DNA of 64,000 bases from Candidatus Izemoplasma sp. (lineage in GTDB: Bacteria > Bacillota_I > Bacilli_A > Izemoplasmatales > Izemoplasmataceae), in assembly GCA_021736205.1 (NCBI GenBank), contig JAIPGF010000001.1, positions 62,001 through 126,000 on the forward strand, read 5' to 3'. This document shows, in pieces, positions 1 through 49,788 of the stretch. The notes beneath the pieces were generated by a model. The model was not told the origin of the DNA. It made no database searches and saw only the letters and a program-made list of their open reading frames with translations. Each line of letters begins with the position of its first letter. Position 1 is the stretch's first letter. Position numbers and translations under genes: made by a program.

Positions 1-629
1 CATTTGTGACCAAAGCTAATCGCACCTATCATAATATCTTCAGCAACTTCTTTAGCACTAGATTCAACCATGTTTACGGCTTCTTTAGTTCCTGCGACTG
101 TTAATTCAACTTCAGTGATTTCTAGTTGTTCTAAGGTAGGGTTTAAGATGTACTCGCCATCAATATATCCAACGTTTACACCAGCAATTGGTCCTGAAAA
201 TGGAATATCACTAATGCAAAGTGATAATGAACTACCAAACATAGCAGTCATTTCTGCTGAATAATCTTCATCGGCACTCATTACATTATTAATAACTTGC
301 GTATCATACTTAAAACCTTCAGGAAATAACGGGCGAATCGGTCTATCGATAAGTCTCGCTGTTAGTGTTTCATTATCGCTTGGTCTTCCCTCTCTTTTTA
401 AAAACCCACCTGGAATTTTTCCGGCAGCATACATTTTCTCACGGTAAATTACCATAAGTGGAAAAAATGGCAAGGTACTAGGTTCTTTTCCAACTGCTGT
501 TACACTAAGCACGGCTGTATCTTCATATCTTATTAGTGCCGCACCTGCAGCTTGTTTTGCCATTTCACCAACTTCAACGACTAAATTACGTCCATTGAAG
601 TCCATCTTAAATGTCTTCACTTCTGACAT
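1..629 (-). CDS. pnp: Polyribonucleotide nucleotidyltransferase, N-terminal part (cut by window edge)
   Basis: PNPase degrades RNA from the 3' end by phosphorolysis in the cytoplasm and is part of mRNA turnover. The visible first ~210 residues are the first RNase PH-like domain: after [14 protein letters not shown] come the family signatures [33 protein letters not shown], and [22 protein letters not shown]. The ATG at 627-629 is preceded by GAGGAAAA at good distance. The stop lies outside the window, so the catalytic second core, KH and S1 domains are not seen. In many Firmicutes pnp follows rpsO directly; here rpsO is ~2.5 kb upstream with three genes between them. Identification is certain from the motifs; completeness cannot be judged. 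Confidence 0.95.
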
Positions 630-679
630 ATTTTTTCCTCTTTTCTTCTATTTCTCTTCATTGTTTTATCCAATTAAAT

Positions 680-688
680 ATAATACCA
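680..688 (-). promoter_or_regulatory. Probable pnp promoter, extended -10
   Basis: On the minus strand the sequence reads TGG-TATTAT about 50 nt before the pnp start, an extended -10 element. No convincing -35 box lies 16-18 nt upstream. It sits in the gap between the end of the YebE-like gene and pnp, so pnp may be transcribed independently. Confidence 0.45.
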
Positions 689-728
689 TAAAAAAGTATA
701 AATTAATAGTCAGAAAGCTTAAAACTTA

Positions 729-1250
729 TTATTTTCTAAAAGAATTATACCCACCATATATTGGGGTCACATTTTTTAGTGTAATAACGGAATTTTGTTC
801 AAAAGAACGAATCAACTTAATGGTATGGCTAGCGTATTTTCTCCGTGTGTTGATTAATAAAATCTCTCTACTATCTGTCATCCCTTTTGCATCAACTGTG
901 GTTACACCAATGTTGTTTTCACGAAGGGCATCTGTTAATTCTTGGCCATCTGTTTTACTAACAATTGCTTCAATACTAACATTTCCAATCGCTAGTTTGT
1001 TCTCTAAATAACTACCAACATAATTACCTACTGCAAATGCTAAGGCATAGATAATAATTTGAAAGGGATCTTTCGCTAAATCACTTAAAACTTGGGAAAC
1101 TAAAAACACCCACAGAATCACTTCGAAAAACCCTAAAACAGCTCCTAAGAGACGCTCATTTTTGGTAATTAAAACCATGCGCAACGTCATTAGCGCTACT
1201 TCAAGTACTTTTAAGAAAAATATTACAGCATAAATCATCATATTTGGCAT
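729..1250 (-). CDS. UPF0316/DUF2179 (YebE-like) membrane protein
   Basis: A 173-residue protein with an N-terminal membrane part (three hydrophobic segments in roughly residues 5-85) and a soluble C-terminal DUF2179-type domain (from about KLAIGNVSIEAIVS to the end, with the IGVTTVDAKG and RRKYASHTIKLIRS stretches typical of the family). Biochemical role is unknown; the family is widespread in Bacilli. I place the start at the ATG at 1248-1250 (MPNMMIYAV): an in-frame GTG at 1257-1259 lies only one base after the AAGGA ribosome-binding site, too close. The first 17 coding bases are an exact inverted copy of the promoter spacer upstream (see repeat entry). Convergence or operon with pnp is possible but a gap of ~100 nt with its own -10 separates them. 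Confidence 0.85.
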   Translation of the reverse strand: MPNMMIYAVIFFLKVLEVALMTLRMVLITKNERLLGAVLGFFEVILWVFLVSQVLSDLAKDPFQIIIYALAFAVGNYVGSYLENKLAIGNVSIEAIVSKTDGQELTDALRENNIGVTTVDAKGMTDSREILLINTRRKYASHTIKLIRSFEQNSVITLKNVTPIYGGYNSFRK

Positions 1251-1308
1251 GTGAACCACGTCCTTATTAAATTTTCACAAGGATTATTGTAATGCCAAAT
1301 ATGATGAT
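1234..1308 (-). repeat. Exact 17-bp inverted repeat joining promoter spacer and start codon region
   Basis: Plus-strand bases 1234-1250 and 1292-1308 are perfect reverse complements (arm on the coding strand: ATGCCAAATATGATGAT). The downstream arm starts exactly at the ATG of the YebE-like gene; the upstream arm is exactly the 17-nt spacer between the -35 and -10 boxes. Neither end extends by a further pairing base. The 41 nt between the arms hold the -10, the predicted transcription start and the ribosome-binding site. Seen directly; function unknown. Confidence 0.9.
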
Positions 1309-1314
1309 AGTCAA
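1286..1314 (-). promoter_or_regulatory. Promoter of the YebE-like gene
   Basis: Minus strand TTGACT (1309-1314), 17-nt spacer, TACAAT (1286-1291). Transcription would begin near 1279, about 30 nt before the ATG, so the upstream repeat arm that forms the spacer would not be in the mRNA from this promoter. Confidence 0.65.
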
Positions 1315-1346
1315 CTCTTTTTTTAATAAATATTTCTATGGCTTCT

Positions 1347-2420
1347 TTAAGCCTTTAATTCAGTAAAATATTCTACAGAAGTTTTAATTGTTCCAACAAT
1401 TGGTATCGCCAGTATAACGCCACTTATTCCAAACAAACTTCCAAAGAAAATAAAACTACTTAAAACGAGTAATGGATGAATTTTTACTTCTTTACCCATA
1501 ATGAATGGTTGTAAAATATTGCCCTGGAATCCTTGTAAAACAAAATTACCTATAATAATAGCAATGAAGGCATAATTCCCAAATAATAATTGTTCAGAAA
1601 CAGTAAATGAATTTAATATAGGAAGTGAGATTGCAATGAATCCACCAATATATGGAATAATATCTAAAAATCCAACTAAAAACCCAAAGAAAATACTTTT
1701 TTGGATACTAAACCCAAAAATAATGAACATAATAGAAAACATGATACTCATAATAAACATCGAAATAAATCGGCCATTAAAATAATTGGTAATAACAACG
1801 TCAGTTCGTTTACCTAGTTCTTTTAAATGACTTTGATATTTTTTAGGAAATACATTCGTAATTCCTTTAAAAATAGTTTTTGAATCATGTAGTAAGAAAA
1901 ATAAAAATACCGGGATTAACACAATGACGACTATAATTCCTATAATATTTCTAAAGACACTTATAAAATTAATAATAACAGGCTCAGCTGTTTCTAATGA
2001 TATAAAATTACCCAGTTGGTTATAAATATCACTTAATGTGGTATCCTGGTTTATATTGTCATTAATAAAGTTTACAATATTATCCCAATCATTTTCAAAA
2101 AATCGGGTTGCTTCTTCATAAATGATTGAACCGATAAACCATCCAAATACGATTAATACCAGTGTTACTATCACTAAGGTAATACCCACAGATAACCATT
2201 TATAGGGTATTTTAAATCTCTTTTCTAACAGGTTAAGTAATGGTTTAAATAAATAACTTAAGAATAACGCTATCCCAAAAGGGACTAAAATAGCGTTAAT
2301 TGCTATTTTTAGTGTGTGTATTTGTGTTGAAAATAGTTGGTTAATATAATATAAACTAATTATTGTTAATGCGAAAATTCCTAAATAATGGAGCGTCTTA
2401 ATTCTCTTTTCTTTGGACAT
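1347..2420 (-). CDS. AI-2E family transporter (permease), paralogue 1
   Basis: A 357-residue polytopic membrane protein of the AI-2E/UPF0118 family (PF01594). Several transmembrane helices are visible, with the family features GIALFLSYLFKPLLNLLE near the N-terminus, the FFLLHDSKTIFKGI segment mid-protein, and the C-terminal IIPYIGGFIAISLPIL and GNILQPFIMGKEVKIHPLLV block. Members have been linked to autoinducer-2 export or to sodium/proton antiport; the substrate cannot be told from sequence. A second, 376-residue paralogue lies at 32877-34007. The start is well supported by GAGGTGATAAA directly before the ATG. Transcribed divergently from the flavodoxin-like gene. Confidence 0.9.
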   Translation of the reverse strand: MSKEKRIKTLHYLGIFALTIISLYYINQLFSTQIHTLKIAINAILVPFGIALFLSYLFKPLLNLLEKRFKIPYKWLSVGITLVIVTLVLIVFGWFIGSIIYEEATRFFENDWDNIVNFINDNINQDTTLSDIYNQLGNFISLETAEPVIINFISVFRNIIGIIVVIVLIPVFLFFLLHDSKTIFKGITNVFPKKYQSHLKELGKRTDVVITNYFNGRFISMFIMSIMFSIMFIIFGFSIQKSIFFGFLVGFLDIIPYIGGFIAISLPILNSFTVSEQLLFGNYAFIAIIIGNFVLQGFQGNILQPFIMGKEVKIHPLLVLSSFIFFGSLFGISGVILAIPIVGTIKTSVEYFTELKA

Positions 2421-2468
2421 TTTATCACCTCTTTTCTATTTTATCATACTTTTGTCTATTTTTTCACC

Positions 2469-2497
2469 TTTAAATAAGTCTTTTAATGCAGTATAAT
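2469..2497 (+). promoter_or_regulatory. Promoter of the flavodoxin-like reductase gene
   Basis: TTTAAA (2469-2474), 17 nt, TATAAT (2492-2497), only ~18 nt before the ATG at 2515, with AGGTGA as the ribosome-binding site. The leader would be very short. Confidence 0.5.
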
Positions 2498-2514
2498 AAA
2501 ATTTAGGTGATAAT

Positions 2515-3120
2515 ATGAACGTTTTAGGAATTGTTGGATCAAAACGAAAAACAGGTAATACAATGACATTAATGCAAGAAACATTAAAGGTATTTAAACA
2601 AAATAATATTGACACAAATCTCATTCAGATTAGTGATTATAATTTCTCTGGTTGTACTGGATGTGAAGGATGCAAAGGCTCTTTTACCTGTATAATTAAA
2701 GATGACATGCAACAAATTTACGAGGCAATTAATCGGTGTGATGTGCTTATATTGGGGTCTCCTACTTATTTTTACAATGTGTCAGCTGACATGAAAAAAT
2801 TAATTGATCGATTTTATGCTTATAATATATTTGATCCCAATGATAGATCCGTTTGGACATCAAAGTTCCATATTGAAGGCATGAAACTCGGTGCGACTAT
2901 TAGTATTTCGGAGCAAAACTCCTATGAGGATATGGGCTTCACACCAAAAGCATTAGAACTTTCCCTTAAAGCAATTGGTGTCCGTGTTATACAAAACTTA
3001 AAAGTCTTGCATCTGTTTGACCAAGATGCTGCAAAACAACATAAACAAGCCATGCAAGATGCTAAAGCGCTTGGAGAAACGTTGTTAAAAAATATCAAAA
3101 TAAATAAAAAAAATCTATAG
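2515..3120 (+). CDS. NAD(P)H-dependent FMN reductase / flavodoxin-family oxidoreductase
   Basis: A 201-residue flavodoxin-fold protein. The N-terminal GSKRKTGNT loop is the FMN-phosphate binding signature, and GSPTYFYNVSADMKKLIDRFY is the flavin/isoalloxazine region of the NADPH-dependent FMN reductase family (PF03358). It carries the CTGCEGCKGSFTC cysteine cluster common in the iron-sulfur-flavoprotein-like branch, although the spacing does not prove a cluster. It would be cytosolic and reduce a flavin, quinone or other electron acceptor; the acceptor is not deducible. It stands alone on the plus strand between minus-strand genes and shares a bidirectional terminator with rpsO. Confidence 0.85.
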   Translation: MNVLGIVGSKRKTGNTMTLMQETLKVFKQNNIDTNLIQISDYNFSGCTGCEGCKGSFTCIIKDDMQQIYEAINRCDVLILGSPTYFYNVSADMKKLIDRFYAYNIFDPNDRSVWTSKFHIEGMKLGATISISEQNSYEDMGFTPKALELSLKAIGVRVIQNLKVLHLFDQDAAKQHKQAMQDAKALGETLLKNIKINKKNL

Positions 3121-3137
3121 CTAAATGCTATAGATTT
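3111..3137. terminator. Bidirectional terminator between the reductase gene and rpsO
   Basis: Eleven-base stem AAATCTATAGC / GCTATAGATTT around a TAAAT loop, with A and T runs on both sides. It can end transcripts of both convergent genes; the stem overlaps the last codons of the reductase gene. Confidence 0.85.
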
Positions 3138-3146
3138 TTGTTTGTG

Positions 3147-3416
3147 TTATCGTCTTAGTTTTAAACGTTTAATTAATGAACGGTAACGTTCAATATCGTT
3201 GTTTTGTAAGTATTTAAGTAAATTACGACGATGTCCAACTTTTTGAAGTAATCCGCGTTTTGAACTGTAATCATGCTTGTGTTCTTTTAAATGCATATTT
3301 AATTCTTCGATTTCAGCTGTTAATAACGCAACTTGTACTTCTGGACTTCCTGTATCGTTTTCTTTTAACTTAAAATTATCAACGATTTCTTTACGTTTTT
3401 GTTTTGTTAATGCCAT
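3147..3416 (-). CDS. rpsO: 30S ribosomal protein S15
   Basis: An 89-residue protein of the usual length, beginning [15 protein letters not shown] and containing the S15 signatures [12 protein letters not shown] and [23 protein letters not shown]. It binds 16S rRNA in the central domain of the small subunit. A strong GGAGGA site precedes the ATG. It has its own promoter and a leader of about 75 nt; S15 often represses its own translation through such leaders, but I could not identify a known fold here. Confidence 0.98.
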
Positions 3417-3499
3417 AGTATTCCTCCTTTTATTTTTTCTTATCTAAATCCTAGTAATACGTTGGAGAATCGTAAAACAAAGACTTAGACGCACATACT

Positions 3500-3527
3500 A
3501 TAATAGCATAATTTTTTATTTATGCAA
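3500..3527 (-). promoter_or_regulatory. rpsO promoter with a dyad in the spacer
   Basis: Minus strand TTGCAT (3522-3527), 16-nt spacer, TATTAT (3500-3505) preceded by TGC (extended -10). The spacer region is a dyad, GCATAA...TTATGC at 3506-3525, which could instead be a weak terminator for ribF; both readings may hold. Confidence 0.6.
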
Positions 3528-3530
3528 GTA

Positions 3531-4427
3531 TTACTTTAATATATTAAGTGTGTTAACTTTGTCTTGATCTATTGTCTCAATTAAATCATCTACAGTATCA
3601 AACTTAAGCTCATCTCTGAGGCGTTTAACAAATTGTATTTCAACGGTTTCACCATAAATTTCTTCATCAAATTCAAAGATGTTTGACTCCACACTTAAAT
3701 CCACTTGACAATTAAGTGTCGGATTGTGTCCAATACTACTCATTGATTGATATTTTTTACCATCGACAATTGTGTACGTGGCATAAACCCCTTTTTTAGG
3801 AACAATATAATTATCATAATCAATGTTGGCTGTAGGATACCCAATCATACGACCTTTTTTCTCACCGTGGATAACTTCGCCTTTAATTGCGTAGTAACGA
3901 CCGAGTATTGGTTTAATCTCAGCTACATGTCCAGCGTTAATTAAATCCCTTAGATGGGTGGAACCAATTTTATACCCGTCAAATCTAATTTCTTCAATTA
4001 CTTTCAAATCAAATAATTTAGCATCTTTGAGCGTTTTAACTGTTCCACTCGCTCTTGCACCAAATTTAAAATCAAAGCCACACACAAGTGTGTGAATATC
4101 ATTTAAATAAGTATTGATGAATCGTTTCGGATCCATGTTTGCAATTTTTTTTGTAAATTCAATAATATATATCGTATCGAAATTAAAGGATTTTAAAATA
4201 GCAAGTTTTTGTTTAAGCGGCGTAATGTAATGATAGTCTAAATCAAACAACACACTTTTGGGATGAATATCAAAGGTAATAACAGCAGCTTCTTTATTTA
4301 ACGTGCGCGCTATATCTATTGTTTCATTTAGTAATTTTTGGTGTGCTTTGTGTACACCATCAAAAAAACCAATTGCTGCAATTGAGTCTTTTTTTACTTT
4401 GGTGCCGTTTAAGTAAATTATCTCCAT
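3531..4427 (-). CDS. ribF: Bifunctional riboflavin kinase / FAD synthetase
   Basis: A 298-residue protein, usual length. The N-terminal nucleotidyltransferase domain shows GFFDGVHKAHQKLL (HxGH-like site), VITFDIHPKSVLF and the VCGFDFKFGARASG segment; the C-terminal flavokinase domain starts near GHVAEIKPILGRYYAIKGEVIHGEKKGR and has GYPTANI and KKGVYATY. It converts riboflavin to FMN and then FAD in the cytoplasm. It lies four bases after truB and upstream of rpsO, the classic truB-ribF-rpsO order, so truB-ribF are surely co-transcribed. Confidence 0.96.
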   Translation of the reverse strand: MEIIYLNGTKVKKDSIAAIGFFDGVHKAHQKLLNETIDIARTLNKEAAVITFDIHPKSVLFDLDYHYITPLKQKLAILKSFNFDTIYIIEFTKKIANMDPKRFINTYLNDIHTLVCGFDFKFGARASGTVKTLKDAKLFDLKVIEEIRFDGYKIGSTHLRDLINAGHVAEIKPILGRYYAIKGEVIHGEKKGRMIGYPTANIDYDNYIVPKKGVYATYTIVDGKKYQSMSSIGHNPTLNCQVDLSVESNIFEFDEEIYGETVEIQFVKRLRDELKFDTVDDLIETIDQDKVNTLNILK

Positions 4428-4431
4428 CTAA

Positions 4432-5310
4432 TCAATCCTTGTGAAATATATTTTCTGGAACCATTTTGGGTTCTTTTGGGTGTTTTTTATAAATACCGCG
4501 TAGATCACCTTGGTCATCTACTATTTTAATACGTGTTTCATCATTAAAATAATCTAAACTAATGGCCATCCCATGTTGGATGTGTTTCTTATAGTCATCT
4601 ATAACCGGGTACGTTGGTATAAACGACAAGGCATCGCTCAAGGATATAATTTTATACTGATTTGCCTCTATTTCTTTTAATGTATAACTTTGTTCTATCG
4701 AAAATTCGCCTGCTTGTAATCGCTCTAAATTATAATTATGTGCGGGATATCCTAGTTTTTTACCAATATCATATGATAAGGTGCGGACATAAAGACCTTT
4801 AGATGCTTTAACGTAGTAGTTAAAATAAGCATAATCGTTATCATAACTAATTTCACTTGTTCGTTTTATATTATCAACCTGTATTTCGCGTTTAGGTCGG
4901 TCTGTTATTTCAATCCCTTTTCTCGCATACTCATAAAGTCGTTTACCTTTATACTTTACTGCTGAATACATGGGAGGTATTTGCACATATGGGTCCATAA
5001 ATGTCTTTAATATAGCATCGACGTTTTTGAGTTTCTTAACACGTTTTTCTTCAAGTACTTCTCCTGTTTTATCTAAGGTATCGGTTGATTTACCAATACA
5101 GATTTCAGCGTTGTATACTTTTGTGTCATTATTAAGGTATTTCATTATTTTAGTACCTTTGTTAATACCACACACAAGTAACCCTGAAGCATCGGGGTCT
5201 AATGTCCCCGTGTGGCCAATTTTTTTCGTGTTTAAAAAGCCTCTTAACTTGTTGACAATGTCATGTGATGTATAGCCAACAGGTTTGTTTACAAGTAAAA
5301 TACCATCCAT
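4432..5310 (-). CDS. truB: tRNA pseudouridine(55) synthase
   Basis: A 292-residue TruB. It makes pseudouridine 55 in the T-loop of tRNA. The catalytic motif GHTGTLDPDASGLLVCGI holds the active-site Asp, and KASKGLYVRTLSYDIG and VKYKGKRLYEYARKGI are typical family stretches. I use the ATG at 5308-5310 (MDGILLVNKPVGYTS) because AAGGTGAT lies six bases upstream; codons before it have no better site. The C-terminal part after residue ~240 is a short PUA-like region. Confidence 0.96.
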   Translation of the reverse strand: MDGILLVNKPVGYTSHDIVNKLRGFLNTKKIGHTGTLDPDASGLLVCGINKGTKIMKYLNNDTKVYNAEICIGKSTDTLDKTGEVLEEKRVKKLKNVDAILKTFMDPYVQIPPMYSAVKYKGKRLYEYARKGIEITDRPKREIQVDNIKRTSEISYDNDYAYFNYYVKASKGLYVRTLSYDIGKKLGYPAHNYNLERLQAGEFSIEQSYTLKEIEANQYKIISLSDALSFIPTYPVIDDYKKHIQHGMAISLDYFNDETRIKIVDDQGDLRGIYKKHPKEPKMVPENIFHKD

Positions 5311-5343
5311 CGTTATCACCTTATTAAATTATAGCTTAAAAGC

Positions 5344-5370
5344 AAAAAAAAACCAAGTAAGAACTTGGTT
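5344..5370 (-). terminator. trxA terminator
   Basis: Stem AACCAAGT / ACTTGGTT with an AAGA loop (5351-5370) followed on the minus strand by a run of T (complement of the A run at 5344-5350). It sits between trxA and truB, so trxA is a separate transcript. Confidence 0.85.
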
Positions 5371-5376
5371 TTTGTT

Positions 5377-5685
5377 TTATGCGTTGTTTACCCAATCTAG
5401 TAGGGCATCTTTAGGCATGAATCCTGCCTTGTTAGCAACTTGTTCTCCATCTTTCATAATCATAATTGTAGGAATTCCACGTACGCCAAATTTTTGCGCC
5501 AGTGGTTGATTTTCATCAACATTCACTTTTACAATTTGAAAATCATGATCTTCGCCAGCGATTTCCTCTAAAACTGGTCCTAACATACGACATGGTCCAC
5601 ACCAATCAGCATAAAAATCTACAAGAACTTTTCCGTCTTTCACTTTGTCATCAAAATTCTCTTCTGTTGCATAAATAATAGCCAT
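5377..5685 (-). CDS. trxA: Thioredoxin
   Basis: A 102-residue thioredoxin with the WCGPC redox site (cysteines 29 and 32) and the cis-proline loop GVRGIPTIM. It is a general cytosolic dithiol reductant for enzymes such as ribonucleotide reductase and methionine sulfoxide reductase; msrA occurs elsewhere in this window. The start MAIIYATEEN is fixed by AAGGAGG seven bases upstream of the ATG at 5683-5685. Flanked by terminator and by mutS2 upstream. Confidence 0.97.
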   Translation of the reverse strand: MAIIYATEENFDDKVKDGKVLVDFYADWCGPCRMLGPVLEEIAGEDHDFQIVKVNVDENQPLAQKFGVRGIPTIMIMKDGEQVANKAGFMPKDALLDWVNNA

Positions 5686-5773
5686 AATTGACCTCCTTGT
5701 TTTTATTAAGTCTTTTTTATTCACACTCATATTATACATAGGTTGTTAAATTCTTTCAAATCATTTGACTATA

Positions 5774-8098
5774 TTATTCAAAATACACAACAGTTACGCC
5801 TTTACCGCCTTCACTTCCTTCGCCATCACGATGGTTTTTAACTTGGGGATGTTTATCTAAGTATTTTTTTACGAGTTTACGTAACGTAAGTGTCCCATAG
5901 CCGTGAATAATGGTTGCAAAGGGTTTATTAGCCAGCAAACAATCATCAATGTATTTATCAACTTTAGCCTGAGCTTCTTCATAACGGAGACCTCTTAGAT
6001 CGAGTGTAGATGAAACATACTTCGATTTTTTTCTAGATTTTTTTGGGGCGGAAGTAGGTGTTTTTTTCTTGCGTCCGACAAACTCAAACTCTTCCTCGGA
6101 AAACTCACTTTTTAAAGCCCCCATTTCGATGAGCCATTTCCCACTTTTCAATTGTTCAAGTAAGGTGCCATTTCGGTTGAATTTCAAGATGTTGACTGTA
6201 TCCCCGGGGGAGTAGGTATGATTTGTTGTAGAGGATGATTCATATTCTTCTTCATGTAGGGTTTTAATTTTGTATTTTAATTTAGCTAGTTCATGTTCTT
6301 TGATTTGATCTTTTTTATGGAGTGCTTCTATTTCTTCAATTAAATTTTCGGCTTTTTCTTTTGTTTCTCTTAGTAAGTCGCTTTCTTTGACTTTAATTTT
6401 TTCTTTTAATGTACGCTTTTCTGCCTCTAATTCTTTTCTTAAATCCGTTGTGTCTTTGATCTTATTTGCTAGTTCACGTTCTTTTGCTTCTAGTTTACGA
6501 CGTTCTTCTTCTAATTTATTGCCTTGTTTTTCAAGTTTATTAATTAAATCTGACACTTCTGTTTGCGAAGTCAAAACATTGCTTTTGGCATTTTCAATGA
6601 TTGATTGGTTTAATCCTAGTCGATCACTGATTAACAGCGCGTTTGATTTTCCTGGTGTCCCCAGTAATAATTTATACGTAGGACTAAGTGTATCGACATC
6701 AAATTCAACAGACGCATTAAGGATTTCTGCTTTATCATAGGCATATGCTTTCAATTCAGGATAGTGTGTTGTAGCAATAATATAGGCCTTTTTAGGAATT
6801 AAATAATCGAGTATAGCAATCGCTAAACTCGCACCTTCTTTGGGGTCGGTCCCACTTCCAAGTTCATCGAGTAATACCAAACTATCTTCTGAGATATGAT
6901 CAATAATATTTATAATATTACTCATATGAGATGAAAACGTACTTAACGATTGTTCAATCGATTGTTCATCCCCAATATCAGCATAAATATTTTCAAAAAT
7001 AATTGTTTTACTATCTTGTTGCACAGGGATCAATAGACCACTTTGCACCATAATTGAAAGTAATCCCAGCGTTTTTAAGGCAACGGTTTTACCCCCTGTA
7101 TTGGGTCCTGTTATAATCATAATACGTTCTTGCTTATTGAGTCTAATATTATTAGGAACGACTTCTTTTGGAGGAATAAGGGGATGTCTTGCCATATTTA
7201 ATCTAACTTCTTCTTTGGTAATAATCGGTAACGTACATTCAAACTCAAACGCAAATTGTCCTTTTGCGAACACTAAATCTAAATAACTTAATGTATCAAA
7301 ATTATGTTTTAAAATATCATGTTCTTTCCCGATTTTACGGGTTAATTCTCTCAGTATACGATCAATTTCTTGACGTTCTTCTAATTCTAACGTTGATATT
7401 TTATTATTAATTTCAGCGACACTGTAGGGCTCCATATAAACTGTTTCACCGCTACTAGAATAATCTATAATAGCACCTTTGAAATTATTCTTCTCAGATA
7501 ATTTAACAGGCACAACAGCACGATCGTGGCGCATGGTGATAAGTTGATCTGCTAGTTTAGATGACTCTTTTGATAAGATACTATCAAGTTTTTGATTCAC
7601 GCGGCGTCTATTTGTTTGAATACTGTTGCGAATGTTTTCCAGTGTTTTAGACGCATTACTTTTGATTTCACCATCAACTGTAATAACGCGATTAATATCA
7701 TCTTTTAATGCTTTTGTTGGTTTTAGACTTTCATAATACGGATCTAAGTTTTCTTCTTGAATCTCGTTTTCTTTGACTTGTTTGTAAAATCTGATATTGG
7801 TAGAAACCGCATCAATAAGTCCAATAATATCTAAAAAGTCTTTTGCTAAGAGTTTAGAATCGATTTTTGCTTTTTTTAATGTATCACGAATATCTCTTAT
7901 GCCACCAAATGGTGCTTTTTGATAAACATTAATAATGGTTTTCGCATGGGCTGTTTCACCTAAAAGTTTATTAATCTTTAAGGGGTTAGAGCTTGGGGTA
8001 ATCGTATCGATTAATGCACTACCCTGTTTTGTTTCTGTATAAGATTTTATGAGTTTTTTTATTTTATCAAACTCTAATCGTGTTGTGCTAAATTCCAT
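5774..8098 (-). CDS. mutS2: Endonuclease MutS2 / ribosome-collision factor
   Basis: A 774-residue protein with the MutS core ATPase, Walker A GPNTGGKTVALKTLG near residue 330, Walker B VLLDELGSGTDPKEGA, and ATTHYPELKAYA. A long charged coiled coil follows (about residues 510-630) and a C-terminal Smr domain shows LDLRGLRYEEAQAK and IIHGYGTLTLRKLVKKYL. It lacks the mismatch-recognition domain of MutS1. In Bacilli MutS2 has been tied to suppression of recombination and to rescue of collided ribosomes. Start at ATG 8096-8098 after GGAAGTGATAATT. Divergent from rnhC. Confidence 0.96.
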   Translation of the reverse strand: MEFSTTRLEFDKIKKLIKSYTETKQGSALIDTITPSSNPLKINKLLGETAHAKTIINVYQKAPFGGIRDIRDTLKKAKIDSKLLAKDFLDIIGLIDAVSTNIRFYKQVKENEIQEENLDPYYESLKPTKALKDDINRVITVDGEIKSNASKTLENIRNSIQTNRRRVNQKLDSILSKESSKLADQLITMRHDRAVVPVKLSEKNNFKGAIIDYSSSGETVYMEPYSVAEINNKISTLELEERQEIDRILRELTRKIGKEHDILKHNFDTLSYLDLVFAKGQFAFEFECTLPIITKEEVRLNMARHPLIPPKEVVPNNIRLNKQERIMIITGPNTGGKTVALKTLGLLSIMVQSGLLIPVQQDSKTIIFENIYADIGDEQSIEQSLSTFSSHMSNIINIIDHISEDSLVLLDELGSGTDPKEGASLAIAILDYLIPKKAYIIATTHYPELKAYAYDKAEILNASVEFDVDTLSPTYKLLLGTPGKSNALLISDRLGLNQSIIENAKSNVLTSQTEVSDLINKLEKQGNKLEEERRKLEAKERELANKIKDTTDLRKELEAEKRTLKEKIKVKESDLLRETKEKAENLIEEIEALHKKDQIKEHELAKLKYKIKTLHEEEYESSSTTNHTYSPGDTVNILKFNRNGTLLEQLKSGKWLIEMGALKSEFSEEEFEFVGRKKKTPTSAPKKSRKKSKYVSSTLDLRGLRYEEAQAKVDKYIDDCLLANKPFATIIHGYGTLTLRKLVKKYLDKHPQVKNHRDGEGSEGGKGVTVVYFE

Positions 8099-19503: not shown

Positions 19504-21781
19504 TCGTATCACTCCTATAAGATATAGTTAGACTAGTTGTTAATGTATATGTATTATCGTTGATTATAAGTTGTATGTGTTCTTTAGTTGGTTTTTTAAG
19601 TGCGATTGTAAGTGTTGCATGCGTAATTGTAATTGTTGTTAAAGAATCATCTAGTGCTAAATTAAATGACAATTCATTGATCGATTCTGGTAAATGTGGG
19701 TCAAAGTATAATGTGTCTTTTGTTCGGCTAAATCCGGCGATACCAAAAACGAATATTTGCCAAGCAGCGGCATTTGCTGCTGTGTGCATACCCCCAATAA
19801 AAGTTCCACCACTCGTTGCCTCATTGGTATTCATTATGTCAATAGATAATGATTTTTTCATATAGGTTCCCAAATCATTTTTTTTATTGAGTCGAGCAGC
19901 AAGTAGGGCATGAATTGATGGGCTTAAAGAGGAAAAATGTAGTGTTCTTGGTTCATAATAGTCATAGTTTGCTTTCTGAATGTATTTATTGAAAAGATTG
20001 GGATATAAATGGAAAAGTTGTAAAACATCTGGTTGTTTGATGCATTGTGTATAAACAGTAATTCCATTAGGCCAACCATAATATTCATTATCATCAATAA
20101 GTCTTTTTTTTACATTTGTTGCTGGGAGGATTGTTTCTAACTCATAATATCCATCAAATTGTTCGATGATTCCTTTATTATTAGGTTGTGGTAAATATAG
20201 ATTATCATGAATGTCTTCCCATAGTGTTATTTCTTCTTGTTTTAGATTCAGTTTTTGTTGAAGACTTTCAATTATTAATTTATCAAACATATTTAAATAT
20301 GTCAGAGCATTATTTAGTGTAAATACTGCTTGATAATTGGTGAAAGCATTGTTGTCAATGTTCTCATGATATTCATCCGGACCTTGAACACGGATGATTT
20401 CATAGCGTTTACGGCGTGGTTTATAAACAACTCGTGAAGCGATAAAGCGGGCAATTTCAATAGTAAGTTCAATGCCATATTGTTCCATAAAGGAACGATC
20501 ATTGGTTGTTGTATAGTAAGTATCAATTGCATAGGCAATATCGGATGATATATGAATTTGCCAAACATTAAAGTGATTACGAATATCGCGATTTGTAATC
20601 ACATCTTTAAAAAATAAATCAGGACATAACTCTTTACCCGTTTTTCCACTTATCCACGCGAAGAATGCACCTTCAAAACCGTGTTTATTTGCTTTTGATT
20701 TAGCACCTTTTAGTGTATTATATCTATAAATTAAAATATTTTTTGCTATAGTAGGGTTTGTGTGTAAATACATGGGCAAATTATATATTTCTTGATCCCA
20801 GAATGCAGCACCTTGATAAGCTTGACACGATAATCCTCGTGCACCGATTGGAAGTGATTTATGCATAGGTGTTGCGATAATTGCATGGTATGTATTAAAA
20901 CGGCAAGCAACTTGATAAAATGTGTCGCCTTTTATAGCAATATCATAATGATTCCAAAGAACTTCCCATGCTTGCTGATGTTTAATTAATTCCTTTTCAT
21001 AAGAAGGGAGTTTTTCGTATAATTTTTTTGCATAATATACTGGATCTTCTGCATCATTAGAAGATAGTGTTATCATATATTTATATACGCTAATTGGTGT
21101 GTCTTTTTTTAGTGTTATTGTTTTTTGTTTAAATAAGTCATTCGTCGTTTTAAAGTCTATGTTGTCAGATACTGTCTTTTCTAACACTACAACATCATTT
21201 TTATAGGTATTTGTGGTACCGACAAAAAGCGTATCATTATGGTGTTTCATCAGTGTCTTTTGTTTAAAATGGTTACCATTAATACTCCATATATCAGTAT
21301 CTAATCCTGTTTTTAATAAGACATCTAAGTTTTTATCACTTATTAAAACATATTTTAATAAAATTACTTCTTTATGAATTAAACTAGCAAACTTCTCTTC
21401 CTTAATTGTCAGTTTTGTATCACCAAATTGATGCGTTGTTTCGCGTTTGGTCACACCATGTTTTAAATCAAGTGTGCGCGTGAAATGTTTGAGGTTTGTA
21501 TTAACAGTTACAGGAATATTTTTAACTGATACTTCTATGTAAAGCGCATTAGGTACAGTAGAAAGTTCTTCCCATTTACCGTCAGCATTATCCCAGGTAT
21601 CACTAACAATACAACCAACATAATTATCTTTTTTATCTTCAGCAAATGTTCCTCTATATCCTAAGAACCCATTACCAATCATAAAATTACTACCATCGTT
21701 AATAACTTCTTTTTTATAAAAATCATTTTTAAGGATTTGCCAATTATCAATTGTATATAAATGTTTACCTATTGTTTTCAT
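19496..21781 (-). CDS. Glycoside hydrolase family 65 phosphorylase (divergent type)
   Basis: A 761-residue GH65 enzyme, first gene of the pgmB-kinase-GT4-lacI operon. FWDQEIYNLPMYL and VQGPDEYHENIDNNAFTN (general acid Glu) are intact. The C-terminal phosphate-site region reads GTFIGGMHTAANAAAWQIF in place of the usual eGihlAamgGtw pattern seen in the other copy, so it belongs to a different subgroup and probably has another acceptor preference. I use the ATG at 21779-21781 with AGGGGA upstream; longer readings start with TTG inside the operator. Probably cytosolic, producing beta-glucose-1-phosphate for pgmB. Confidence 0.88.
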   Translation of the reverse strand: MKTIGKHLYTIDNWQILKNDFYKKEVINDGSNFMIGNGFLGYRGTFAEDKKDNYVGCIVSDTWDNADGKWEELSTVPNALYIEVSVKNIPVTVNTNLKHFTRTLDLKHGVTKRETTHQFGDTKLTIKEEKFASLIHKEVILLKYVLISDKNLDVLLKTGLDTDIWSINGNHFKQKTLMKHHNDTLFVGTTNTYKNDVVVLEKTVSDNIDFKTTNDLFKQKTITLKKDTPISVYKYMITLSSNDAEDPVYYAKKLYEKLPSYEKELIKHQQAWEVLWNHYDIAIKGDTFYQVACRFNTYHAIIATPMHKSLPIGARGLSCQAYQGAAFWDQEIYNLPMYLHTNPTIAKNILIYRYNTLKGAKSKANKHGFEGAFFAWISGKTGKELCPDLFFKDVITNRDIRNHFNVWQIHISSDIAYAIDTYYTTTNDRSFMEQYGIELTIEIARFIASRVVYKPRRKRYEIIRVQGPDEYHENIDNNAFTNYQAVFTLNNALTYLNMFDKLIIESLQQKLNLKQEEITLWEDIHDNLYLPQPNNKGIIEQFDGYYELETILPATNVKKRLIDDNEYYGWPNGITVYTQCIKQPDVLQLFHLYPNLFNKYIQKANYDYYEPRTLHFSSLSPSIHALLAARLNKKNDLGTYMKKSLSIDIMNTNEATSGGTFIGGMHTAANAAAWQIFVFGIAGFSRTKDTLYFDPHLPESINELSFNLALDDSLTTITITHATLTIALKKPTKEHIQLIINDNTYTLTTSLTISYRSDTND

Positions 21782-47274: not shown

Positions 47275-49788
47275 TTAGTCAAAGAGTTTTTGTTGTATAT
47301 CTTCTTTATCGTCTTGTCTTGTGTAGGCACTAAGCGGTGGATAATCGGGATTTTCTTCAAGTTGTTCTAAGTTAATAAACCTCGGTGTTCCTGCTTTTTT
47401 CTTAATAAATGTTCGACCATTTTCTGTGGTATCTGTTTTAAACTTAAAGGCATTAAATTTAACGGCTGTATTCGTTGTAGTAACAACAACTGATGCACGG
47501 TCTTTATACTGTGTTTCATTGAGTAAACTGGCATCAACCACGTAATAGGGATTAGATTTAACGACTTTGTATAACTGTACGCCTTTGTTTGTTCGTTTTT
47601 TCTTTTCAATATCAGATAGACTCATTCGTTTAATCGTTCCTCGGTTGGTGAGCAATAGCAAATCATGAAAGTCTTTTAAATAAAGTCCCACAGTTAATTC
47701 ATCTCTTGGAGACATATTTTGTGCTTTCATTCCTTTAGCGATCGTTGAGGTGATTGAGATATCTTCGGCATTGAAACGGAGTGCTTTACCGCGTTTTGAA
47801 ATAATAAGTAACTCACCGTTATGTTCTTTGGTAATATCAATGCTCACTACTTCATTACCCTCATCTAGTTGAATGGCTTTAATTGGACGGGTATAGCGTG
47901 CAACATCAAAATCTTTAAGTTTTGTTTGTTTAATTAAATTGTCTTTTGTGACAAAGAGCAAGGTTTTATCTGCTTCAAAATCAGACACTTGAATAATTTT
48001 TATAATTTTTTCTTCTTGTTCAAGTTCGACAATGTTATTAATGTGAGTTCCGAGTTCTTTCCATTTATAGCGAGGAATTTTATAGACCGGAAGATAAATG
48101 TAATTTCCTAAGTTGGTAAAAATCAGCATCGTATCTAAGTTAGATACGACGTCTTCAAATAAGAAGGAATCATTTTCTTTCAACATCGTTGATTCAGTTG
48201 CGCTATGTGAACGTTTAGATGCTGCTTTAATGTAGCCCTCTTTTGTAATTCCTACAACAACGTGTTCTTCAGAAATTAATTTTTCTTCAGCTACTTTAAA
48301 GGTTTCAATTTCTTCTTCTATTTCGCTTCTACGTGTAGTATCTAGTTGTTTTTGGAATTTTCGTAATTCTTTGATAATAACTTTTTCTAATTCCAATTCG
48401 GTATTTAATATTTTATTGAGTTGATCTATTTCTTTATTTAAAGCTGATTTTTCACTTTCTAAAGCTTTAATATCAGTACTTGATAAACGATATAATTGCA
48501 ATGTCACAATTGCTTCTGCTTGTTCTTCTGAAAAATCAAATTCTTGTTTGATTTTAGATTTAGCTTGTTTTTTATTTTTAGAAATACGAATTAATGCAAT
48601 TACTTGATCAATGACTTCCATAAGACGGATAATTCCATCGACAATATGCAGACGTTTTTTTGCTTTTCTGAGTTTGAAATTAGAGCGATTGGTAATCACT
48701 TCTTTTTGATGTAAAATATAAGCATCTAAAATTTCAAATAAACTCATTAACTTCGGTCGTTTATTATCGATTGCAACCATATTGTAATTGTATGTTTTGG
48801 TGAGATTGGTTTTGCGATGTAAAAACTTTAAAATTGCTACAGGATCAAAATCTTTTGATACTTTAACAACGATTCTAAGTCCTGTGCGGTCTGATTCATC
48901 ACGTACATAATCTATCCCGTCAATTTTCTTTTTTAGACGAATATCATCAATTTTTCTAACCAGGTTCGCTTTATTTACTTCATACGGTATTTCTGTAACA
49001 ATAATCAGTTGATCGTCAATTGTTGCTTTTGATTTAATTTTGATACGTCCGCGTCCTGTTTCAAACGCTTTTTTTATTTGTTTTTTTCCTTGGACAATTG
49101 CCCCAGTTGGAAAATCTGGCCCCTTAACAATCTCAAGTAATGCATCAAGTTCCATTTTAGGATTTTTCAAACGTTTGATAACGGCTGTGATTATTTCATC
49201 GGTGTTATGCGGGGGAATTTCTGTGGCATATCCTGCCGAAATTCCTGTTGCCCCATTGAGTAATAAATTGGGAATACGTGCTGGTAGCACAGTTGGTTCG
49301 TATTCTTCATCGTCAAAGTTTGGAATAAAGTCAACCGTTTGAAATTCTATGTCTTTAAGTAACATTTCACTTGTTTTAGACATGCGTGCTTCAGTATAAC
49401 GCATTGCTGCTGGGCTATCACCATCGATTGATCCTTTGTTACCATGCATATCAACTAATAAATTGGATGTTTTCCAATATTGTGATAAGCGAACCATTGC
49501 GTTATAAACAGATGTATCACCATGTGGATGATACTTCCCAATAACGTCCCCAACAATACGAGCACTTTTCTTAAAGGGTTTATTGGAAAACATCCCGAGT
49601 TTATACATAGAAAAAAGGATGCGTCGTTGTACGGGTTTCAACCCATCACGTACATCGGGTAACGCACGGTCTTGAATAATATATTTTGAATAACGACCAA
49701 AACGATCGCCAACAATTTTTTCTAAGTTTTCATTTTGAATATTCTTATCTACAAAATCATTGATGTCTTTAATTACTTTGCTTGCCAT
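47275..49788 (-). CDS. parC: DNA topoisomerase IV subunit A
   Basis: An 837-residue type IIA topoisomerase subunit, the DNA-cutting half. The N-terminal winged helix domain has RALPDVRDGLKPVQRRILF, HPHGDTSVYNAMVRLSQ, the ParC-type GNKGSIDGDSPAAMRYTEAR with the active-site Tyr, and DFIPNFDDEEYEPTVLPARIPN, which separate it from GyrA; a C-terminal beta-pinwheel follows. At the two quinolone hot-spot positions it has Thr and Asn instead of the usual Ser and Glu/Asp. It follows parE by 12 bases. Confidence 0.95.
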   Translation of the reverse strand: MASKVIKDINDFVDKNIQNENLEKIVGDRFGRYSKYIIQDRALPDVRDGLKPVQRRILFSMYKLGMFSNKPFKKSARIVGDVIGKYHPHGDTSVYNAMVRLSQYWKTSNLLVDMHGNKGSIDGDSPAAMRYTEARMSKTSEMLLKDIEFQTVDFIPNFDDEEYEPTVLPARIPNLLLNGATGISAGYATEIPPHNTDEIITAVIKRLKNPKMELDALLEIVKGPDFPTGAIVQGKKQIKKAFETGRGRIKIKSKATIDDQLIIVTEIPYEVNKANLVRKIDDIRLKKKIDGIDYVRDESDRTGLRIVVKVSKDFDPVAILKFLHRKTNLTKTYNYNMVAIDNKRPKLMSLFEILDAYILHQKEVITNRSNFKLRKAKKRLHIVDGIIRLMEVIDQVIALIRISKNKKQAKSKIKQEFDFSEEQAEAIVTLQLYRLSSTDIKALESEKSALNKEIDQLNKILNTELELEKVIIKELRKFQKQLDTTRRSEIEEEIETFKVAEEKLISEEHVVVGITKEGYIKAASKRSHSATESTMLKENDSFLFEDVVSNLDTMLIFTNLGNYIYLPVYKIPRYKWKELGTHINNIVELEQEEKIIKIIQVSDFEADKTLLFVTKDNLIKQTKLKDFDVARYTRPIKAIQLDEGNEVVSIDITKEHNGELLIISKRGKALRFNAEDISITSTIAKGMKAQNMSPRDELTVGLYLKDFHDLLLLTNRGTIKRMSLSDIEKKKRTNKGVQLYKVVKSNPYYVVDASLLNETQYKDRASVVVTTTNTAVKFNAFKFKTDTTENGRTFIKKKAGTPRFINLEQLEENPDYPPLSAYTRQDDKEDIQQKLFD

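Follow-up and report, generated by a model that had tools for sequence, protein, structure and literature searches.

The spacer of a promoter and the start of the DUF5698/DUF2179 membrane-protein gene behind it form an exact 17-bp inverted repeat, which was probably left behind by a single short-range template switch of the replication machinery. In such an event the polymerase would have strayed from its template inside the promoter spacer, taken a reverse-complement copy of 17 nt from the gene start close by and then returned. The old spacer would have been replaced by a mirror copy of the start-codon region, leaving the -35 and -10 hexamers of an existing promoter untouched. The repeat lies in a stretch of 64,000 nucleotides that was analysed as a whole (the window, to which the coordinates in Table 1 refer). 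Its source genome, G000, is represented by one assembly (92% completeness, 1.56 Mb).

Geometry of the repeat

On the minus strand the elements follow one another in the order TTGACT, ATCATCATATTTGGCAT, TACAAT, 35 nt and ATGCCAAATATGATGAT. The two arms (1234-1250 and 1292-1308) are reverse complements at 17 of 17 positions, lie 41 nt apart and cease to pair beyond 17 nt on both sides. The spacer arm ATCATCATATTTGGCAT is the entire 17-nt gap of TTGACT-N17-TACAAT, and the coding arm ATGCCAAATATGATGAT begins at the A of the ATG. An earlier, sequence-only reading of this DNA had described both the perfect complementarity and the coincidence of the arm borders with functional borders, and our comparison bears it out on both counts.

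We take the gene to be of the UPF0316/YebE-like kind; its product is matched by the NCBIfam PRK04164 models under their cut-offs. The ORF program placed the start at a GTG (1259). On our reading the ATG at 1250 is probably the better start, since AAGGA lies 10 nt upstream of it, whereas the GTG leaves hardly any room after AAGGA. A search of positions 1-8000 of the window against Rfam (E <= 1) gave four sub-threshold matches. The only one at the repeat was Histone3 at 1314-1358 (18.0 bits, gathering threshold 34), which touches the -35 hexamer and was taken as a chance match.

Table 1. Features of the window that bear on the promoter repeat and on the second repeat in parC.
Feature	Position	Strand	Basis
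DUF5698/DUF2179 membrane-protein gene, ATG at 1250	729..1250	-	ORF; Pfam PF18955 (E 2.7e-22), PF10035 (E 9.4e-6)
Coding arm ATGCCAAATATGATGAT, probable source of the copy	1234..1250	-	exact reverse complement of 1292-1308
Shine-Dalgarno-like AAGGA, 10 nt 5' of the ATG	1261..1265	-	sequence reading
UCCUUGU, predicted partner of AUAAGGA (1261-1267) in the large hairpin, near the expected transcription start	1277..1283	-	RNA fold; start placed from the -10 hexamer
-10 hexamer TACAAT, 35 nt 5' of the ATG	1286..1291	-	promoter scan; similar -10 boxes in 11 relatives
Promoter-spacer arm ATCATCATATTTGGCAT, probable derived copy	1292..1308	-	exact reverse complement of 1234-1250
-35 hexamer TTGACT	1309..1314	-	promoter scan; TTGACA at the corresponding place in 11 relatives
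Upstream gene, AI-2E family transporter	1347..2420	-	PF01594 (E 1.4e-54)
Changed arm in parC, encodes YWKTSN (genus relatives PWKTRT)	49465..49479	-	second probable template-switch scar
Partner arm in parC, encodes MFSNKP, relative-like	49581..49595	-	second probable template-switch scar

An old promoter with a peculiar spacer

The DUF5698/DUF2179 gene is present in 46 of 61 genomes and, within the family of the source genome, in 43 of 49; this family includes Candidatus Izemoplasma acidinucleici. Four genomes make up the genus (G000, G001, G002 and G003), and the best full-length protein identity among relatives is 56%. The upstream region was compared at 35 loci, those of G000 and 34 others. 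These represent 30 plus a few more of the 46 matched genomes, the remainder belonging mostly to other families of the order. In one of the 34 (L021) the contig breaks off a little way upstream and no start is callable, leaving 33 with a callable start. Loci L065-L067 were read by eye only.

At 11 of the 34 other loci (L002, L003, L004, L009, L010, L011, L013, L016, L017, L064 and L070) the gene has a sigma-70-type promoter: TTGACA is separated by 16-17 nt from a -10 box that lies 33-46 nt upstream of the start. The 11 include all three remaining genomes of the genus. At most of the loci without such a promoter the upstream gene ends within ~30 nt of the start. Since the same kind of promoter is found at nearly the same distance in 11 relatives, we regard it as ancestral. 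The sequence of its spacer is, as far as this comparison reaches, new in the G000 lineage: the spacers of the 11 relatives agree with it at 6-9 positions (shifts of up to 2 allowed) and resemble it no more than they resemble one another. The sequence-only reading had suggested comparing orthologous upstream regions for conservation or covariation of both arms. The 17-nt repeat is absent from all 34 other loci and no complement between upstream region and start exceeds 9 nt at the 33 with a callable start.

These data are consistent with a stretch from close by having been copied exactly, as its reverse complement, in place of unrelated sequence while the flanking boxes stayed as they were, judged against relatives that are distant. 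The same earlier reading had considered that a template switch made the promoter; such a switch is indeed the explanation we favour, but the promoter predates it. As to direction, the gene start of L003 is identical to the coding arm at 13 of 17 nt, including the first 11, and that of L014 at 12 of 17. This likeness points to the gene start as the source and the spacer as the copy. Codons 4-5 of the coding arm (ATG ATG) are unusual compared with the relatives, and over this 3' third the direction of copying is therefore uncertain. Spacer sequence is of minor importance provided that the length is 17, and the promoter therefore probably still works. An exact landing between the boxes is also what selection would be expected to leave behind, because boxes and spacing are intact after it and landings that broke the promoter would have been lost. 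Counted against a template switch are the distance of the relatives, the fact that the ancestral spacer of this lineage is unseen and the lack of a short branch on which the event could be placed. The exactness of the arms could, in addition, reflect selection.

A promoter with two copies of one site in opposite orientation might also carry a paired operator, through which a repressor would hold the stretch from spacer to gene start in a DNA loop, as had been proposed from the sequence. However, relatives bearing the same promoter have no such arm, and the single arms are not palindromic. The 17-mer has 37 sites in G000 at up to 3 mismatches, both arms included, with no further copy at up to 1 mismatch. 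All 35 other near-matches lie inside ORFs, so that similar sites at other promoters were not found; we rejected the operator on this ground and give it next to no credence. A cruciform that switches the promoter was another option of the earlier reading. The arms are rich in A and T, the loop measures 41 nt, and the promoter persists in relatives that have no such repeat; our data speak neither for nor against this option.

A miniature invertible promoter, in which the 41 nt between the arms would flip and remove the -10 box, resembles known invertons in having inverted repeats around promoter parts. The repeats here flank the -10 box and the ribosome-binding site, AAGGA is present in both orientations, and the genome encodes tyrosine recombinases, the nearest ~8 kb away on the same contig. 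Unlike invertons, this element has a loop of just 41 bp, very short for two recombinase sites, and one of its arms is inside coding sequence. A junction search of the consensus assembly, with a pattern that also matches the native plus strand, returned the native site as its single match, whereas a flipped copy would have produced a second one. Such an arrangement is not seen in relatives either, and we consider an inverton extremely unlikely.

Long inverted repeats and a second case in parC

From the base composition of the window, 0.067 repeats with an arm of at least 17 nt and a loop of 13-150 nt are expected per 1.56-Mb genome and 0.019 per 435 kb, or, scaled from the latter figure, ~0.003 within the window alone. 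The promoter repeat exceeds in length every other exact inverted repeat with a loop of 13-150 nt in the 435 kb of G000 that were sampled. It also ranks first among 369 gene starts for the complement between upstream region and start (17 nt, followed by 14, 12, 11 and 11), and none of these runners-up covers the start codon. The complement in 3,678 mismatched gene pairs does not exceed 14 nt. The match had been called far beyond chance. For a single gene this holds, and the repeat is not a product of chance. At the level of the genome the claim is too strong, since 0.067 such repeats are expected and G000 has an excess of repeats; here the repeat is compatible with chance, if only weakly. The expectation of 0.07 per genome was accordingly counted against a template switch. 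The alignment of the arms with functional borders gives the repeat further weight.

The excess is seen with long-loop exact repeats of arm at least 13 nt, 12 of which are present in the 435 kb of G000, whereas 10 first-order Markov simulations of equal size contain 2.2 on average. Five long-loop exact repeats, one of them of 18 bp, were found in 200 kb of G003. No long-loop repeats were found in 200 kb of a further relative (G011). The excess is thus not general in the family, which also counts against a template switch. The 18-bp repeat of G003, a genome of the same genus, is intergenic, with arms at 6217-6234 and 6320-6337 of locus L123 and an 85-nt loop. In G000 itself, a 16-bp exact inverted repeat (19587-19602 and 19627-19642, 24-nt loop; L053) sits between an ftsZ-like gene, named by eye, and its neighbour. 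This repeat and two other long-loop repeats (L044 and L052) were examined for gene context alone.

A 15-bp exact inverted repeat with arms 101 nt apart lies within parC in the same window, and thirty parC loci were compared. ParC of G000 reads SQYWKTSNL, whereas all three other genomes of the genus have SQPWKTRTL. The core TGGAAAACA is common to G000 and two of the three genus relatives. Its flanks have changed from CCA to TAT and from CGN to TCC, giving TAT-TGG-AAA-ACA-TCC, and these are exactly the changes that extend the match to the other arm, with P to Y and R to S replaced at once. The partner arm encodes LGMFSNKP and resembles its counterparts in relatives (LGMFHDKP, LGMFHNKP and LGMFSDKP). 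The same two stretches are complementary over at most 3-6 nt at the remaining 29 loci. In its sequence, the parC repeat has the form of a quasipalindrome correction by template switching, and one event would account for as many as six changed bases and for both replaced residues. The presence of the same kind of event in the same genome favours a template switch at the promoter as well. A chance match in AT-rich DNA at a favourable position would fit the figure of about 0.07 per genome, but the expectation for the window, the rank among gene starts, the mismatched pairs, the repeat excess and the clear second case in parC together make it very unlikely.

We found no match to SbcD (TIGR00619) in the genus (four genomes), although the same search matched 13 of 14 control genomes; three of the four genus members have XseA. 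The absence of SbcD may bear on the persistence of hairpin-forming repeats. This link is suggestive only, as arms of 17 bp are perhaps too short to matter.

Read-through RNA and comparison with known systems

RNA that reads into the gene from -35 onwards is predicted to fold with -29.8 kcal/mol (z -6.0), and a slightly shorter stretch gives the same energy with z -7.3. The AUG has a predicted probability of 0.05 of being unpaired (0.95 paired) and is thus sequestered in the modelled structure. In this fold an inner 7-bp stem between UCCUUGU (1277-1283) and AUAAGGA (1261-1267) covers the ribosome-binding site. The sequence-only reading had foreseen a start codon locked in a stem with the ribosome-binding site in the loop; the first part agrees with the prediction, but the loop does not simply leave the ribosome-binding site unpaired. 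A transcript initiated at the gene's own promoter would begin at ~1279, about 7 nt past the -10 box and within the loop between the arms, and so be without the 5' arm; with that start, both arms are found together only in external transcripts. Its fold (-7.1 kcal/mol, z -0.1) is no better than that of shuffled sequences. Its AUG is likewise predicted to be largely paired (0.02 unpaired), within a local stem of low stability, and the contrast between the two RNAs consequently rests on energy and not on pairing. Read-through RNA from the AI-2E gene would, in this model, hide the start codon in a stable 17-bp stem and be poorly translated.

A terminator scan found no minus-strand site between 1250 and 1347 in G000, from the AI-2E gene to the promoter. 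One script recognised an intrinsic terminator upstream of the promoter in 8 of the 11 promoter-bearing relatives, and the other three (L002, L011 and L016) have neither a recognised terminator nor the hairpin. At L009, L013 and L017 the end of the upstream protein is, by eye, much like that of AI-2E.

The hairpin could accordingly be a fold-back insulator under selection, which would block translation of AI-2E read-through RNA and leave own-promoter RNA free. In a variant of this reading it may have arisen by template switching and then been kept after loss of the intergenic terminator. The difference in energy and z between the two predicted RNAs, the sequestered AUG of the read-through RNA, the terminator that is recognised in most promoter-bearing relatives and not in G000, and the exactness of all 17 pairs argue for an insulator. 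Against it are the conservation of the hairpin in 0 of 34 other loci, the AUG of the own-promoter RNA, which is mostly paired too, and the three relatives that manage with neither terminator nor hairpin. On balance we think an insulator under selection unlikely. Quite unlikely, too, is a lock on read-through made in one step, in which a template switch would have replaced a lost terminator and been kept by selection. If it were true, external RNA would be shut over the start codon and the ribosome-binding site while own-promoter RNA stayed open, and the promoter would be unharmed because the spacer alone was overwritten.

Read-through mRNA of the IS10/Tn10 transposase is subject to fold-back inhibition. 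There, as here, an inverted repeat straddles promoter and start, and RNA from outside alone has both arms and hides the start. The present gene differs in being an ordinary chromosomal gene with no IS element, and its fold is a prediction. No description of the IS10 precedent was found in the portions of the literature that our search covered, PMC8450116 and PMC5006887 among them.

A scar of template switching remains the preferred reading of the repeat. Quasipalindrome template switching is established in E. coli (PMC7202029), and template switching has been shown to give rise to hairpins (PMC8794818). The titles and abstract beginnings returned by our searches on template switching in bacteria and promoters describe no promoter-spacer case. 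A quasipalindrome core is not demonstrable at the promoter repeat and is visible in parC. The promoter and parC cases together suggest that this wall-less Bacilli lineage is a good place to measure natural template switching, and the promoter repeat illustrates how a single step can give rise to an RNA hairpin across a start codon. It shares with short-range template switches (quasipalindrome correction and the four-point model) the one-step, exact reverse-complement copy of a nearby stretch with the rest of the site intact. It differs from known cases in that the copy falls exactly in a promoter spacer and its probable source is a start-codon region. It is a readable case in which a replication slip would have rewritten a whole promoter spacer with the promoter boxes untouched.
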